Shown here: positions 8,056 to 30,923 of the stretch, in pieces | How positions within the stretch are numbered: the first letter of the stretch is position 1 | Layout: each line of letters opens with the position of its first letter | Source of the DNA: Hymenobacter radiodurans | GTDB lineage: Bacteria; Bacteroidota; Bacteroidia; Cytophagales; Hymenobacteraceae | Direction: 5' to 3' | DNA length: 64,000 bases | Assembly (NCBI RefSeq): GCF_004355185.1 | Contig: NZ_CP037922.1 | Location: forward strand, 4,664,902-4,728,901 | Position numbers and translations under genes: made by a program | The notes under the pieces: model-generated | Databases searched by the model: none | Seen by the model: only the letters and a program-made list of their open reading frames with translations | What the model was told of the DNA's origin: nothing

Positions 8056-8262
8056 ATGCTATTCCAATATTTCCTGATCGGCGTTTTGTTTCTGGCGGCC
8101 ACTTTCTATGTGGGCCGGATATTCTGGGGGGCTTTTTTCTCCCCTAGCACCACTGGCTGCGCCAAGGGCTGCGGCGGTGCTTGCGGTACCATCGATGTCG
8201 ACCGGCTGCAACGCACTATTGAAGCGGCAGCGCAGAAAGCTGGACCGTTACCAAGTAAATAA
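8056..8262 (+). CDS. Small Cys-rich membrane protein (FeoB-associated type)
   Basis: A 68-residue protein starting MLFQYFLIGVLFLAATFYVGR, one membrane helix, then a short cysteine cluster (TGCAKGCGGACG) and an amphipathic tail. The layout matches FeoB-associated Cys-rich membrane proteins, which are small partners in iron handling, but no feo gene is seen nearby, so the role is inferred from form only. ATG 8056 is preferred over the upstream reading at 8035 because of the promoter box. A strong terminator follows at 8293. Confidence 0.65.
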   Translation: MLFQYFLIGVLFLAATFYVGRIFWGAFFSPSTTGCAKGCGGACGTIDVDRLQRTIEAAAQKAGPLPSK

Positions 8263-26481: not shown

Positions 26482-27582
26482 TTATTTAACGTCGTCGTGT
26501 GGGTTCATTACCCGGTTTTGGCGGTTGATAGATTCTAGGTGAATGGCGTCGAAATACTTGAGGATGAAATCTTTAGTCAGTCCTAGCTTGGCGCCTTTCT
26601 GTACACCGCGGTCCAGGATTTCATTCCAGCGGTTGGGCTGCAGAATGGTGATGTCGTTCTCCTTTTTGTAGGTACCGATCTTCTCGGCTACGGCCATGCG
26701 GCTGCTAATGAGCTGCATAATTTCGTCGTCGATGTGGTTGATCTGGTCGCGCAGCTTAGCCAGCACGGTCAAGAATTCCTGTTTGTCGGTGGTTTCGTGG
26801 CGCCAGATGAGGCTATCGAGCAGGGCAACCAAATTGGTGGGCGTTACCTGCTGGGCGGCGTCGCTCCAGGCTTGGTCCGGGTCGCGGTGCGACTCCAGCA
26901 TGAGGCCGTCGAAGTCAAGGTCAATGGCTTTTTGGGCTACGTCGGCGAGTAGGTCGCGGCGGCCACAGATGTGGCTGGGGTCGCAGATGAGCGGCAGCTC
27001 GGGCATGCGGCGCTTCATCTCAATGGGTAATTGCCAGAGCGGCGCGTTGCGGTATTCGGTATTGCCGTAGCTGGAAAAGCCACGGTGAATGAGGCCAATT
27101 TGCTTGACCCCCGCTTTAGCTAAACGCTCCACGGCGCCGGCCCACAGCTCTACATCGGGATTGATGGGGTTTTTGATGAACACCGGCACGTCAGTACCGC
27201 GCAGCGCGTCGGCCACGGCCTGCACTGAAAAAGGGTTCACTGTCGTACGCGCGCCGATCCAGAGAACATCCATCTCGAAGGCCAGGCTGTCTTCCACGTG
27301 TTTGGGCGTAGCTACTTCCACCATCACCGGCAGGCCGGTTTGCTCACGGGCCTTTTGCAGCCAGGGCAAGCCTTTCGTGCCGATGCCCTCAAAGCCGCCG
27401 GGCTTGGTGCGCGGCTTCCAGATGCCGGCGCGCAGCATATCCACGCGGCCGGTTTGGGCTAGTTGGTTGCAGGTATCGAGGAGCTGTTCCTCGGTTTCGG
27501 CGCTGCAAGGGCCGGAGATGAGCAGGGGCTTTTTGCTGGTAAGCTCAGCGGCCGACATGGTAGTTGTTTGGGCTTGGTCCAT
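26482..27582 (-). CDS. Bifunctional DAHP synthase / chorismate mutase (type II)
   Basis: 366 residues. Residues 1-255 are a DAHP synthase of the KDO8P-synthase-like type (KKPLLISGPCSAETEEQL; MLRAGIWKPRTKPGGFEGIG; LICDPSHICGRRD), joining PEP and erythrose-4-phosphate, the entry to the shikimate pathway. Residues 270-350 are an AroQ-type chorismate mutase helix bundle (LRDQINHIDDEIMQLISSRMAVAEKIGTYK), which makes prephenate. The fusion couples the first pathway step with the committed Phe/Tyr step. It is the last gene of the aromatic operon and its ATG overlaps the tyrA stop. Confidence 0.95.
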   Translation of the reverse strand: MDQAQTTTMSAAELTSKKPLLISGPCSAETEEQLLDTCNQLAQTGRVDMLRAGIWKPRTKPGGFEGIGTKGLPWLQKAREQTGLPVMVEVATPKHVEDSLAFEMDVLWIGARTTVNPFSVQAVADALRGTDVPVFIKNPINPDVELWAGAVERLAKAGVKQIGLIHRGFSSYGNTEYRNAPLWQLPIEMKRRMPELPLICDPSHICGRRDLLADVAQKAIDLDFDGLMLESHRDPDQAWSDAAQQVTPTNLVALLDSLIWRHETTDKQEFLTVLAKLRDQINHIDDEIMQLISSRMAVAEKIGTYKKENDITILQPNRWNEILDRGVQKGAKLGLTKDFILKYFDAIHLESINRQNRVMNPHDDVK

Positions 27583-28423
27583 TATTTCAAGATTTTACGA
27601 ATGAGGTTAGCTTGCTCAATGAGCTGATGAAAAGCGGGATAATCCTCTTGTTCCAGCACCTCTTTCATGTGCTGGAGTTGGCGCAAATGCTCACTGAGCA
27701 CATCGAGCACGTTGAGGCGGTTTTGGCGGAAAATAGGCACCCACATATCCGGCGAGCTTTTAGCCAGCCGTACCGTCGACTCGAAGCCGCCGCTGGCTAG
27801 GTTAAAGATTTGCTGCTCCTCCTTTTCCTTGTTTAAGACAGTGAGTGCCAGGGCAAAAGAGGTGATGTGAGAGATATGGGAGATGTAGGCCGTGTGCAGA
27901 TCGTGGGCAGCCCCGCCCATGTACACCAGCCGCATCCCAATTCGCTCAAAAATGCCCCCACCCGACTTACGGCGGCCGGGTCGCTGTGCTCCGCGTCGCA
28001 GATTACGACGGCCTTGTCTTGAAACAAGCCCTGGACCGCCGCCTCGGGCCCCGAATACTCGGTACCGGCCATGGGGTGCACCGCCACAAAACGGGCCCGA
28101 CGCGGGTGCTGCGCAACGGCTGTCAGCAGCTTTTGCTTGGTCGATCCTACATCGATAACTATCTGGTGGTCAGCAATTGAATCCAAAACCTGTGGCAGCA
28201 ACGTGAGCATGGCATCCATGGGCACAGCCAGCACAATGAGGTCGGCACGGCTGATGCCAGACGCCAGGTCGACTACCTCATCGACCAGATTCAAGCTCAG
28301 AGCTTTCGTTTGGTTCTCGAAGCTTTGATCTACGCCAATGATATGCATAGCCAAGCCAGCATCTTTGAGGCTCAATGCTAAGGAGCCCCCAATTAAACCA
28401 ATACCTATTATGGTGACTATCAT
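27582..28423 (-). CDS. tyrA: Prephenate dehydrogenase, one frame break
   Basis: Oxidises prephenate to 4-hydroxyphenylpyruvate, the Tyr branch. ATG 28423 gives MIVTIIGIGLIGGSLALSLKDAG, a Rossmann NAD site. Further on come DVGSTKQKLL, FVAVHPMAGTEYSGPEAA and, after the break, GGAAHDLHTAYISHISHITSFALA, all TyrA motifs. The frame breaks at the C5 run 27955-27959 (AAATGCCCCCACC); a sixth C gives SRVGGIFERIGMRLVYMGGAAHD and a 280-residue protein. The stop TAA overlaps the ATG of the DAHP synthase gene (TAATG), which supports the repaired frame and tight coupling. Confidence 0.92.
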
Positions 28424-28427
28424 CTTT

Positions 28428-29609
28428 TTATCGAGAAACAGGTGTGGCTTTTCGTGCTGTAACAATGCGTTCTAAGGCAGCCGTCAGCACGCTTTCCGGC
28501 TGGCACAAGCTCACCCGAATGAAGTCGTTGCCGTTGCTGCCAAAAATGCCCCCCGGCGTGATAAATACCTTCGCCTGGTGCAGCAGCTCGTCGCTGAGCG
28601 CGTAGCCATCCGCGTAGCCAGCCGGAATTGCCCCCCAGACGAACAACCCCGTCTGCTGCCGATCAAATTGGCAGCCGATGGTGGTGAGCAGGTTAAACAC
28701 TTGTTCGCGGCGGGCCCGGTAGGTGGCGTTAAGCTGCTCAAACCAATCTGCGCCCAGCCCCAGCGCGACAATAGCGCCGCGCTGCACCGGCAGAAACATG
28801 CCCGAGTCGAGGTTGCTTTTGAAGCGCAGCACCTGTTGCAGCCACTCGGCCCGGCCCACCAGCATACCCACGCGCCAGCCGGCCATATTGTGCGATTTGC
28901 TCAGCGAATTCAACTCTAGCGCCACTTCGCGCGCGCCCGGCACAGCCAGCAAACTCTGCGGGTTGTCGTTGAGAATGAAGCTATACGGGTTGTCATGCAC
29001 CAGCAGAATATTATGCTGCTGCGCGAAGGAAACGAGGCGGGCCAGAAACTCCATATCGGCGGGGGCACCGGTGGGCATGTGCGGGTAGTTGAGCCACATG
29101 AGCTTCACCCGACTCAGGTCGCGCTGGGCCAGGGCGTCGAGGTCGGGCTGCCAGTTGGTGGCAGCCGTCAGATCGTAGTCGACGGGCTTGGCGCCGCTGA
29201 GCTGGGCGGCGGCGCGGTACGCGGGGTAGCCCGGATTGGGAATCAGAACCTCGTCGCCGGCTTGCAAAAACGTCATGCTGATGTGCATAATACCCTCTTT
29301 TGAGCCCAGCAAGGGCAGGATTTCATTAGCTGGGTTTAGCTCCACCCGATACGCCCGCTGGTACCACTCAGCCATAGCCTGCCGCAGAGCCGGGCTACCC
29401 TGGTAGCCTTGGTAGGCGTGGGTATTCGGCTGCTCGGCCGTGGTGCTCAAGGTCTCAATTACGCTGGGGTGCGGCGGCAAATCGGGGCTGCCAATACCTA
29501 GGTTGATGACGGCGGCACCCGCCTGATTCATGGCCTCAATTTCGCGCAGCTTCTGGGAGAAATAGTACTCGCCCGTATGCTGAAGGCGGTCGGCGGTGGA
29601 GATGTTCAT
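28428..29609 (-). CDS. PLP-dependent aminotransferase, class I/II (aromatic operon)
   Basis: 393 residues of fold-type I aminotransferase. INLGIGSPDLPPHPSV at the N terminus, AYQGYQGSPALRQAMAEWY, VLIPNPGYPAYRAAA, a Tyr/Asn pair in WLNYPHMPTGAPA, and the PLP lysine in LELNSLSKSHNMAGWRVGM. Placed between pheA and tyrA, it probably converts phenylpyruvate and hydroxyphenylpyruvate to Phe and Tyr; similar proteins are often labelled LL-DAP or aspartate aminotransferases. Five bases separate its stop from the tyrA ATG. Confidence 0.92.
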   Translation of the reverse strand: MNISTADRLQHTGEYYFSQKLREIEAMNQAGAAVINLGIGSPDLPPHPSVIETLSTTAEQPNTHAYQGYQGSPALRQAMAEWYQRAYRVELNPANEILPLLGSKEGIMHISMTFLQAGDEVLIPNPGYPAYRAAAQLSGAKPVDYDLTAATNWQPDLDALAQRDLSRVKLMWLNYPHMPTGAPADMEFLARLVSFAQQHNILLVHDNPYSFILNDNPQSLLAVPGAREVALELNSLSKSHNMAGWRVGMLVGRAEWLQQVLRFKSNLDSGMFLPVQRGAIVALGLGADWFEQLNATYRARREQVFNLLTTIGCQFDRQQTGLFVWGAIPAGYADGYALSDELLHQAKVFITPGGIFGSNGNDFIRVSLCQPESVLTAALERIVTARKATPVSR

Positions 29610-29626: not shown

Positions 29627-30481
29627 CTAACTAGCGTGTGTTGAGGCTGTTAATTGAGTGTCTCCCCTTTGATAAAGCCCTAGCACGCGTAAATCTTCGG
29701 TGAGCGGCTCTAGGTCTTGGAGTACTTCGTGGAATTGATCGGCGTGGTCGAACTCCAGATCGGCGTGGAAGAAGTATTGCCAGGCGCGGCCGGGCTGGGG
29801 AAACGATTGAAGCTTAGACAGATTCAGGTCGTGGTCGGCAATTTTATTGAGCACCCGCGCCAGCGAGCCTTTGGTGTGGGACGTGTGAAAGTACACCGAT
29901 GCTTTGTTGGCCGTAGCAGGCTGGGGGGCATTTTCGGCGGTGTTGATGATAAGAAAGCGCGTATAATTCTCCGGCACCGACTGGATATCCGCCGCTCCTA
30001 CTTCTAAGTCAAACAGCTCAGCGGCCGCCTGACCAGCTACGGCGGCGATGCCCGTCAGATGGCCTTCGCGAATACGCTGGGCGCTAAGGGCCGTATCCTC
30101 GGTCTCAACCAGCTTCCATTCAGGGTGTTGATTGAGAAAATCGGCGCACTGAAGCAGGGCCATCGGGTGCGAATGCACCTCCCGCAAGTCAGCCAGGGTT
30201 TGGCCGGGCAGCAGCAGCAGATGCTGCCGAATGGGCAAATACACCTCGCCCGTCACTCGTAGCGCCGACTGTTGGAGCAGGTTGTAGTTGGGTAGAATGC
30301 TGCCGGCAATAGAGTTTTCAATGGCCATTACGCCTCCCGTGGCGGTACCGCGAGCCACCTGCCGCACCACCTCTGTAAAGGTCGCGCAGGGCGTCACGGC
30401 AGTTTCGGGCCCGAAGTACTGATGAGCGGCAAGCTGATGAAAGCTCCCGGCGAAACCCTGAATGGCAATGGTAGGCGTCAT
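29627..30481 (-). CDS. pheA: Prephenate dehydratase with C-terminal ACT domain
   Basis: 284 residues from ATG 30481 (MTPTIAIQGFAGSFHQLAA). It decarboxylates and dehydrates prephenate to phenylpyruvate, the Phe branch. Catalytic-domain motifs: GGVMAIENSIAGSI, IRQHLLLLPG and the conserved NYTRFLII. The ACT domain (KASVYFHTSHTKGSLARVLNKIADHDLNLSKLQSFPQPG) should bind Phe for allosteric inhibition. It heads the operon pheA-aminotransferase-tyrA-DAHPS/CM. A longer reading to 30847 runs straight through the leader region and terminators and is rejected. The 310 bp upstream hold a tandem attenuator. Confidence 0.94.
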   Translation of the reverse strand: MTPTIAIQGFAGSFHQLAAHQYFGPETAVTPCATFTEVVRQVARGTATGGVMAIENSIAGSILPNYNLLQQSALRVTGEVYLPIRQHLLLLPGQTLADLREVHSHPMALLQCADFLNQHPEWKLVETEDTALSAQRIREGHLTGIAAVAGQAAAELFDLEVGAADIQSVPENYTRFLIINTAENAPQPATANKASVYFHTSHTKGSLARVLNKIADHDLNLSKLQSFPQPGRAWQYFFHADLEFDHADQFHEVLQDLEPLTEDLRVLGLYQRGDTQLTASTHAS

Positions 30482-30506: not shown

Positions 30507-30540
30507 AAAAAAGGCCCCCTGGGGTGCAGGGGGCCTTTTT
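30507..30540 (-). terminator. Attenuator 2 terminator, just upstream of pheA
   Basis: On the minus strand the hairpin AGGGGGCC/GGCCCCCT is followed by U6 and ends 26 nt before the pheA ATG. Being inside the 5' leader and after a Phe/Tyr-rich ORF, it is a regulatory terminator. Its 5' arm (30527-30539) is complementary to a segment inside leader ORF 2. Confidence 0.88.
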
Positions 30541-30557
30541 CGTTGCTTCTTTTGAGG

Positions 30558-30638
30558 TTAAGCAGAATAAAAGACTCCCTGTTTCTTCCGGTAGAAGAAA
30601 TAATAGAAGCCGTAATAAAAAGAAGCGGAGAACTGCAT
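30558..30638 (-). CDS. Leader peptide 2 of the Phe/Tyr operon (26 residues)
   Basis: ATG 30638 to TAA 30558. The peptide begins MQFSASFYYGFYYFFYRKKQ and ends GVFYSA. It has 6 Phe and 6 Tyr in 26 residues, ten of them within residues 3-16. Such density of the end products of the operon marks a leader peptide for ribosome-mediated attenuation: when charged Phe- or Tyr-tRNA is scarce the ribosome stalls in the aromatic block. The codons for residues 20-24 contain the antiterminator segment, which would be free during stalling and covered during full translation. A coding function other than regulation is unlikely. Confidence 0.88.
   Translation of the reverse strand: MQFSASFYYGFYYFFYRKKQGVFYSA
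30569..30581 (-). promoter_or_regulatory. Antiterminator segment 2
   Basis: The transcript segment CAGGGAGUCUUUU can pair with AAAAGGCCCCCUG, the 5' arm of the downstream terminator (minus strand of 30527-30539): 11 Watson-Crick pairs, one G.U and one mismatch. It lies in codons 20-24 of leader ORF 2, after the aromatic block. Confidence 0.75.
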
Positions 30639-30660
30639 GATCGAAGAATACTCAGGGAAT

Positions 30661-30695
30661 AAAAAAAGCGCCTTTTCGGAGGTCCGAAGGCGCTT
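30661..30695 (-). terminator. Attenuator 1 terminator, between the two leader ORFs
   Basis: On the minus strand, AAGCGCCT and its complement plus an inner TCGGA/TCCGA stem form a hairpin followed by U7. It lies 36 nt past leader ORF 1 and 22 nt before leader ORF 2. Its 5' arm (30684-30695) is complementary to a segment right after the stop of ORF 1. It could also stop readthrough from the small gene at 30924. Confidence 0.86.
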
Positions 30696-30717
30696 GGTTT
30701 GTCTAGGGTAATGGGGC

Positions 30718-30729
30718 AAGCGGCCTCGG
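30718..30729 (-). promoter_or_regulatory. Antiterminator segment 1
   Basis: The transcript segment CCGAGGCCGCUU can pair with AAGCGCCUUCGG, the 5' arm of terminator 1: 10 Watson-Crick pairs, one G.U and one mismatch out of 12. It starts 2 nt after the stop of leader ORF 1, so a ribosome at the stop would mask it and one stalled upstream would not. Confidence 0.72.
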
Positions 30730-30731
30730 TT

Positions 30732-30791
30732 CTACGCGGTAGCGTAGAAAAAATACGAGGTAAAATAATACTGGGTAGAGGCCGTACGCAT
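30732..30791 (-). CDS. Leader peptide 1 of the Phe/Tyr operon (19 residues)
   Basis: ATG 30791 to TAG 30732, reading MRTASTQYYFTSYFFYATA. It has 4 Tyr and 3 Phe, all between residues 8 and 16. It is followed by its own antiterminator segment and terminator, so it forms a full attenuator upstream of the second. The promoter is not clear: a TACTTTAC immediately before the ATG is too close, and weaker TAnnTTTG-like matches lie 30-60 nt upstream. Expected role: stalling on Tyr/Phe codons lets transcription continue to the second switch. Confidence 0.83.
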   Translation of the reverse strand: MRTASTQYYFTSYFFYATA

Positions 30792-30923
30792 GAGGTAAAG
30801 TAGCCGTTTAGCTGCCCAAATCTGAACAAAGCCAAGCAGGAAAACAAGTTTAGCCTAAATTTTTCTGGTTTTGTTGGTTGGGCATGAGGCGTTTATGGGC
30901 AGTGATTTATGTATGATCCCTTT

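Follow-up and report, generated by a model that had tools for sequence, protein, structure and literature searches.

Does the pheA gene of Hymenobacter radiodurans, a member of the Bacteroidota, lie behind two complete attenuators in series, and do both answer to the same amino acids? Ribosome-mediated attenuation is a textbook mechanism of enteric bacteria, whose phe operon has a leader-peptide attenuator. Upstream of pheA on the minus strand of the window (the whole 64-kb stretch of DNA that was analysed), the pattern is found twice. It is very likely that the leader holds two largely independent ribosome-mediated transcription attenuators in series, both sensing charged Phe- and Tyr-tRNA. 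What the computation supports is the anatomy, its conservation, the pairing of each segment with its own partner, compensated stems and where the segments lie with respect to the codons. That the terminators stop transcription, that ribosomes stall, that the units sense tRNA and act independently, and that the product rule given below applies, is what we infer.

The order on the minus strand is a putative promoter, ORF1, terminator 1, ORF2, terminator 2 and pheA, as read directly from the sequence with script-checked coordinates (Table 1; positions are those of the window). The original prediction had described two short aromatic ORFs of 19 and 26 residues. Its coordinates and aromatic counts proved correct when checked by script, and its main claim, two complete units in series before pheA, was confirmed by reading, folding and shuffling. 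A segment complementary to the 5' arm of the terminator had been claimed for each unit as well. This held for both, but the placement differs: the unit 1 anti-terminator begins a few bases from the ORF1 stop codon, whereas that of unit 2 falls within the final third of ORF2.

Table 1. Features of the tandem leader and of the genes behind it, in window coordinates.
Feature	Position	Strand	Description or basis
Putative Bacteroidota-type promoter	30817..30847	-	TTG 30847-30845 and CAGATTTG 30824-30817, read by eye
Leader ORF1	30732..30791	-	MRTASTQYYFTSYFFYATA, 19 aa, 7 Phe/Tyr, stop TAG
Unit 1 segment 1, codons 3-5 of ORF1	30778..30784	-	Window fold; potential partner of the segment after the ORF1 stop
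Stop-codon hairpin, last codons of ORF1 and TAG	30732..30747	-	Pairing and base-pair exchange in relatives
Unit 1 anti-terminator segment (segment 2), after the ORF1 stop	30718..30729	-	11/12 pairs with the terminator 1 5' arm
Terminator 1 with T-run	30661..30695	-	Hairpin -17.9 kcal/mol (folding); compensated changes in relatives
Leader ORF2	30558..30638	-	MQFSASFYYGFYYFFYRKKQGVFYSA, 26 aa, 12 Phe/Tyr, stop TAA
Unit 2 segment 1	30605..30611	-	Pairing with 30579-30573 (part of segment 2) possible; fold of the window only
Unit 2 hairpin, last Phe codons with Lys codons of ORF2	30582..30600	-	Window fold and 36 relatives
Unit 2 anti-terminator segment, inside ORF2	30569..30581	-	12/13 pairs with the terminator 2 5' arm
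Terminator 2 with T-run	30507..30541	-	Hairpin -26.4 kcal/mol (folding); simple terminator scan
pheA, prephenate dehydratase	29627..30481	-	Pfam PDT 2.6e-55; start ATG 30481
Class I/II aminotransferase	28428..29609	-	Follows pheA in the operon
tyrA, prephenate dehydrogenase, two reading frames in the assembly	27582..28465	-	Frame split near a G-run at about 27950
DAHP synthase fused to chorismate mutase	26482..27582	-	Follows tyrA in the operon

The 350-nt leader folds into a more stable structure than all 100 of its own shuffles (z -5.6). A classifier was used that scores a unit when at least 5 Phe/Tyr fall within 12 residues and a terminator follows 10-110 nt past the ORF. When it was applied to 2000 dinucleotide shuffles of the leader, 1967 had no unit, 33 had one and none had two, and a chance origin of two units was ruled out on this basis. 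Over the 64 kb, both strands included, the classifier returned both leader units and one extra hit at 8086-8262 (+), which was judged spurious. A simple terminator scan of the minus strand listed part of terminator 2 and missed terminator 1, the stem of which has a 2-nt bulge; the support for terminator 1 is therefore folding and conservation. Within the window, no Rfam leader, T-box or riboswitch family matched at gathering score, and an explanation by one of these listed families was rejected. Judged from sequence and folds, the leader appears to combine the parts of a ribosome-mediated attenuator: an ORF rich in product codons, an intrinsic terminator, and an anti-terminator that would exclude it.

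The original prediction had proposed looking for the same order of ORFs and terminators across the Hymenobacteraceae. PheA was matched in 168 of 204 family genomes, and one locus each was classified from 149 of them, the other 19 being left out. The pair is present in 81 of the 105 loci of the window's own genus (Hymenobacter, g1) and in all three loci of the genus g6, which together form the 84 tandem loci discussed below. The doubled layout is not universal, as the remaining 24 loci of g1 score single. In g5, six loci are tandem and 24 single, and the loci of g2 (eight) and g4 (three) are all single. None of the 149 classified family loci is devoid of a unit. One of the loci that score single, L129 (genome G055), has the second unit at about 586-725, with an ORF2 that lacks a stop codon and runs through terminator 2, as if the second switch were decaying.

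Among named loci, the best 80 of 194 were considered. The closest of these, from Hymenobacter sp. BT188, H. qilianensis and H. roseosalivarius, have two units each. The titles of the 77 others in the best 80 point mostly to Chitinophagaceae or unclassified Bacteroidetes; 67 of these loci have one Phe/Tyr unit, nine have none (including L281, with only 51 nt upstream) and one is a doubtful two (L267), the first unit of which was judged spurious. At the level of the phylum, 30 loci were hand-picked from 334 genomes with a match; 20 have one unit, eight have none and two score two, so that at least one unit is present in 22 of the 30. For one of the two (L344), the first unit was judged spurious. 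The other (L353, from G486 of family f27) has a doubled Phe/Tyr leader before pheA, in which a terminator follows each of the ORFs MAYRSAYYFYFFCFFSSCRG and MNCMGYTYYYFFSLMDHRRLWVV; folding supports this pair. Of 30 hand-picked loci at the level of the order, two of them shortened (L229 and L230), 24 have no unit, five have one and one (L232) has two weak units, which were left out of the tandem count. A search of the window's own genome for the Phe/Tyr codon-run pattern gave eight hits against seven for the reversed pattern and was uninformative. As far as these leaders can be classified by sequence, a single putative Phe/Tyr attenuator before pheA is common, not general, in the sampled Bacteroidota, and the doubled version is concentrated in Hymenobacter.

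The anti-terminator segments of both units were first picked by eye and then tested by duplex energies over the tandem loci. In unit 1, the mean duplex energy of segment 2 with the 5' arm of terminator 1 was -12.7 kcal/mol for the own partner, -10.7 kcal/mol for swapped and -6.6 kcal/mol for shuffled partners, and the own pairing was better than shuffles at 5% in 75 of 84 loci. The corresponding values for segment 2 of unit 2 with the arm of terminator 2 were -16.1, -14.4 and -9.1 kcal/mol, with the own pairing better than shuffles in 53 of 84 loci. Cross pairs rose above shuffles in 18 of 84 loci for unit 1 segment 2 with terminator 2, and in none for unit 2 segment 2 with terminator 1. By these energies, the two units look largely insulated from each other. 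The pairing of segment 1 with segment 2 in unit 1 (an anti-anti-terminator), which is seen in the window fold, exceeded shuffles at 5% in only 27 of 84 loci. In relatives (e.g., L008, L020 and L055), the unit 1 anti-terminator is followed by a conserved TGTAGCTTT / TGTAGCTAA that is absent from the window's leader; by its sequence, it could pair with the Phe-Ser-Tyr codons of ORF1.

Covariation was assessed in an alignment of 36 of the 84 tandem loci. RNAalifold gave a weak consensus for unit 2 (-2.5 kcal/mol), and the pairings were therefore tested sequence by sequence. The ORF1 stop-codon hairpin is paired in 97.7% of cells, and its inner pair is C-G in 29 loci, A-U, G-C and U-A in one each, and unpaired in four. 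In this hairpin and terminator 1 together, 13 cells have a double change, compared with 2.5 for the shuffles, none of which (0 of 500) reached this number, a count that is to be read as support and not as a probability, because the shuffles retain relatedness. Subject to the same reading, the unit 2 hairpin, paired in 93.5% of cells, has seven double-change cells against 1.4 (0 of 500), while the number of its pairs with a double change, two against 1.1 (149 of 500), is not unusual.

These data bear on the possibility that one unit alone regulates pheA and that the other is left over from a duplication or a replacement. The 24 single-scoring loci of g1 retain the unit 1 type of terminator, which would make the second unit dispensable, and the missing stop codon in L129 points the same way. 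However, aromatic codons, terminator and opposing segment are retained in both units of the 84 tandem loci, which argues against regulation by a single unit, and changes in the unit 2 stem are compensated. We regard control by one unit as improbable.

The response of each unit to the position of a ribosome was modelled by folding the transcript cut at the terminator loop, with 15 nt upstream and 14 nt downstream of the A-site masked to represent the ribosome; such folds are equilibrium structures, whereas the real choice between terminator and anti-terminator is kinetic. With the ribosome on the aromatic codons, the anti-terminator value is close to 0.79 for unit 1 and to 0.73 for unit 2. In unit 1 it starts to fall just past the last aromatic codon, and in unit 2 it is already 0.52 on the last aromatic codon (-11). 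With the ribosome at the stop codon, the values are 0.18 and 0.16 when the downstream RNA alone is allowed to pair, and 0.49 and 0.45 when the upstream RNA is also allowed. Without a ribosome they are 0.69 and 0.65, which means that termination by default is not seen in these folds. Spacers in random order gave 0.41 for unit 1 and 0.50 for unit 2, the latter being near the real value of 0.67. The contrast was retained when the footprint was made three bases shorter or longer. In the single units of other genera and in both g5 units, the fall is likewise near the end of the aromatic run, and it is gradual in the g5 singles. In this model, the position of the ribosome on the aromatic codons would decide the structure, clearly when pairing is restricted to the downstream RNA and more weakly otherwise. 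The predicted geometry of both units fits ribosome stalling.

Retention of the terminators with loss of the Phe/Tyr codons in related genomes had been named as the case that would speak against the original prediction. It was looked for and not found, as Phe and Tyr occur in both ORFs of all 84 tandem loci. The minimum number of aromatic residues is at least five in ORF1 and at least six in ORF2, although the classifier demands aromatic ORFs, so that the 84 loci were partly chosen by aromatic content; the exchange of Phe for Tyr and the absence of Trp were not built in likewise. On average, unit 1 contains 3.7 Phe and 4.0 Tyr, and unit 2 contains 5.0 Phe and 4.1 Tyr. Phe or Tyr occupies 631 of the 756 cluster positions of unit 1 and 650 of the 840 of unit 2, and the two exchange at most cluster positions. 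Trp is found in none of the 1596 cluster codons of both units; it is present in single leaders of other families. This pattern would be expected if the codons for the pathway products, rather than the peptide, were under selection. The ORF1 stop codon is TAG in 107 of the 108 g1 and g6 loci and TGA in one (eight g2 loci with TAA were left out), a preference that the stop-codon hairpin, where formed, would explain. The set labelled g1 single in the codon analysis comprised 31 loci (23 from g1 and eight from g2), the latter eight also being in the g2 and g4 set.

The leader peptides might instead act themselves, by arrest or as free peptides, or the terminators might merely insulate pheA from upstream transcription. 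A shared residue pattern, such as the small residues at -9 of ORF1, lends this some colour. Yet it is Phe-or-Tyr that is retained, with no fixed peptide and without Trp in the clusters, the terminator-opposing segments are placed where a stalled ribosome leaves them free, and insulation alone does not predict aromatic ORFs, all of which makes such a role very improbable. A division of labour, in which one unit senses Phe and the other Tyr, would match two sensors to two end products, but it is scarcely credible given that both ORFs are mixed in every tandem locus and that the two residues interchange.

The preferred reading, two serial attenuators for the same two amino acids, would work as follows. 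RNA polymerase would begin upstream of ORF1. When Phe or Tyr is short, a ribosome translating ORF1 would stall at its aromatic codons. The segment past the stop codon, left uncovered, would then pair with terminator 1 at its 5' arm, which would let the polymerase pass. A second ribosome would be tested in the same way on ORF2: stalled there on the aromatic codons, it would leave the segment at codons 20-24 available to the 5' arm of terminator 2, so that the polymerase would reach pheA. When charged tRNA is ample, each ribosome would run on and cover or disrupt the segment, and each terminator would form. Read-through into the operon would be the product of two probabilities: leaks would multiply, log-gains would add, and the full induced level would be multiplied too. 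The product rule is arithmetic on an assumed independence, and a sharper, steeper response would likewise be expected from the doubling.

The consensus of the Bacteroidota promoter box is TAnnTTTG. The window's own candidate, which was recognised by eye alone, has CA in place of TA. Allowing at most one mismatch, a search with the strict pattern TTG..TAnnTTTG ahead of ORF1 succeeded in 25 of 84 tandem loci, compared with 5 of the 84 shuffled sequences. None of the 84 stretches from ORF1 to terminator 2 contained it, and a separate promoter before ORF2 was thus not found by this pattern. A sigma-70 scan gave no site.

The operon had been predicted to consist of pheA, an aminotransferase, tyrA and DAHP synthase/chorismate mutase and to make Phe and Tyr. 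This stands, except that the tyrA frame is split. The split is near a G-run at about 27950; the same split occurs in G071, and the frame is open in G095 and G073. As hisG of the window's genome also matches in two pieces, an assembly error is possible, though the split may also be a real break. The aminotransferase, tyrA and DAHP synthase/chorismate mutase all occur within 5 kb after pheA in each of the 11 fetched g1 and g6 relatives and in two of the nine other fetched genomes. The rest of these nine have the aminotransferase and DAHP synthase/chorismate mutase (three), the aminotransferase and tyrA (one), the aminotransferase alone (one), or, in the two g5 tandem genomes, DAHP synthase/chorismate mutase alone. 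Elsewhere in the window's genome, upstream of hisG (L343), a short ORF with a His-rich end (APHHLHHGHHSSF) looks, by its sequence, like a histidine leader peptide; our terminator script found no terminator there.

A quick PheA gene tree of 91 rows, with long-branch warnings, requires at least six changes of the tandem label. On the Hymenobacter side, the early branches are tandem and the single loci are nested, which suggests that the second unit was lost in some Hymenobacter. A tandem group (G058, G059 and G021) is nested inside single loci, and this may be a regain, a transfer or a tree error. In this tree, the g5 tandem clade is nearer to Hymenobacter than to other g5 rows, and the two doublings may go back to one shared origin or to transfer. 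Up to three origins of the second unit are favoured from the sequences, because the ORFs and terminators of the g5 clade are unlike those of Hymenobacter and G486 belongs to another family. The doubling could then be a recurrent design of the Bacteroidota, in which a widespread single Phe/Tyr attenuator gained a second, complete and insulated unit up to three times (in Hymenobacter and g6, in the g5 clade, and in G486 of f27) and lost it in some Hymenobacter, to give a two-stage multiplicative switch with a lower leak and a sharper response. We offer this broader reading tentatively, as plausible and still somewhat doubtful. If it is true, ribosomes closely trail RNA polymerase in this phylum.

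Should the serial attenuators be real, many Bacteroidota would use a Phe/Tyr switch before pheA, and one lineage would have two such switches in a row for one signal. Matched single and double versions would then exist in nature, from which it can be measured how doubling alters leak and steepness, and transcription-translation coupling in the Bacteroidota would be open to testing.

No description of a doubled Phe/Tyr attenuator was found in the open-access literature searched, which does not prove its absence in print. A 2020 map of Bacteroides thetaiotaomicron mentions short ORFs in long 5' UTRs that are reminiscent of leader peptides (PMC7366714). Two sensors with terminators in series are also known from the metE leader with its tandem SAM and B12 riboswitches, as mentioned in PMC3641672; there, the riboswitch RNA binds its ligand directly, whereas the sensor in Hymenobacter would be a ribosome on an ORF. 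The Salmonella mgtCBR leader, according to the same source, resembles the Hymenobacter leader in having two short ORFs read by ribosomes. It responds to two signals (ATP and proline), independently and additively, and its stem-loops are not like intrinsic terminators (PMC3641672). In contrast, each Hymenobacter unit ends in an intrinsic terminator, and the codons are alike in the two; judged by these codons, the two ORFs would not serve different signals, as both carry Phe and Tyr. In the mefA/msrD operon, according to PMC10314930, two attenuators with the leader peptides MefAL and MsrDL answer to one inducer as a "double-lock" that avoids basal expression. Unlike in Hymenobacter, the gene mefA separates the two units, the second of which controls msrD only, and the inducer is a macrolide and not an amino acid. 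As described in these sources, mgtCBR and mefA/msrD are partial precedents, neither of which places two complete attenuators for amino acids directly one after the other.

The trp and his leader-peptide attenuators have been modelled, and the model of Elf and Ehrenberg relates many regulatory codons to a high sensitivity of one attenuator (PMC1183508). The Hymenobacter leader is like the enteric trp, his and phe attenuators in its short ORFs rich in product codons, its intrinsic terminators before the first gene and an opposing pairing that would be freed by stalling. It is unlike them in its two complete serial units, its mixed Phe and Tyr codons, its Bacteroidota host, its lack of an Rfam match, and a second unit that carries the anti-terminator within the ORF itself.
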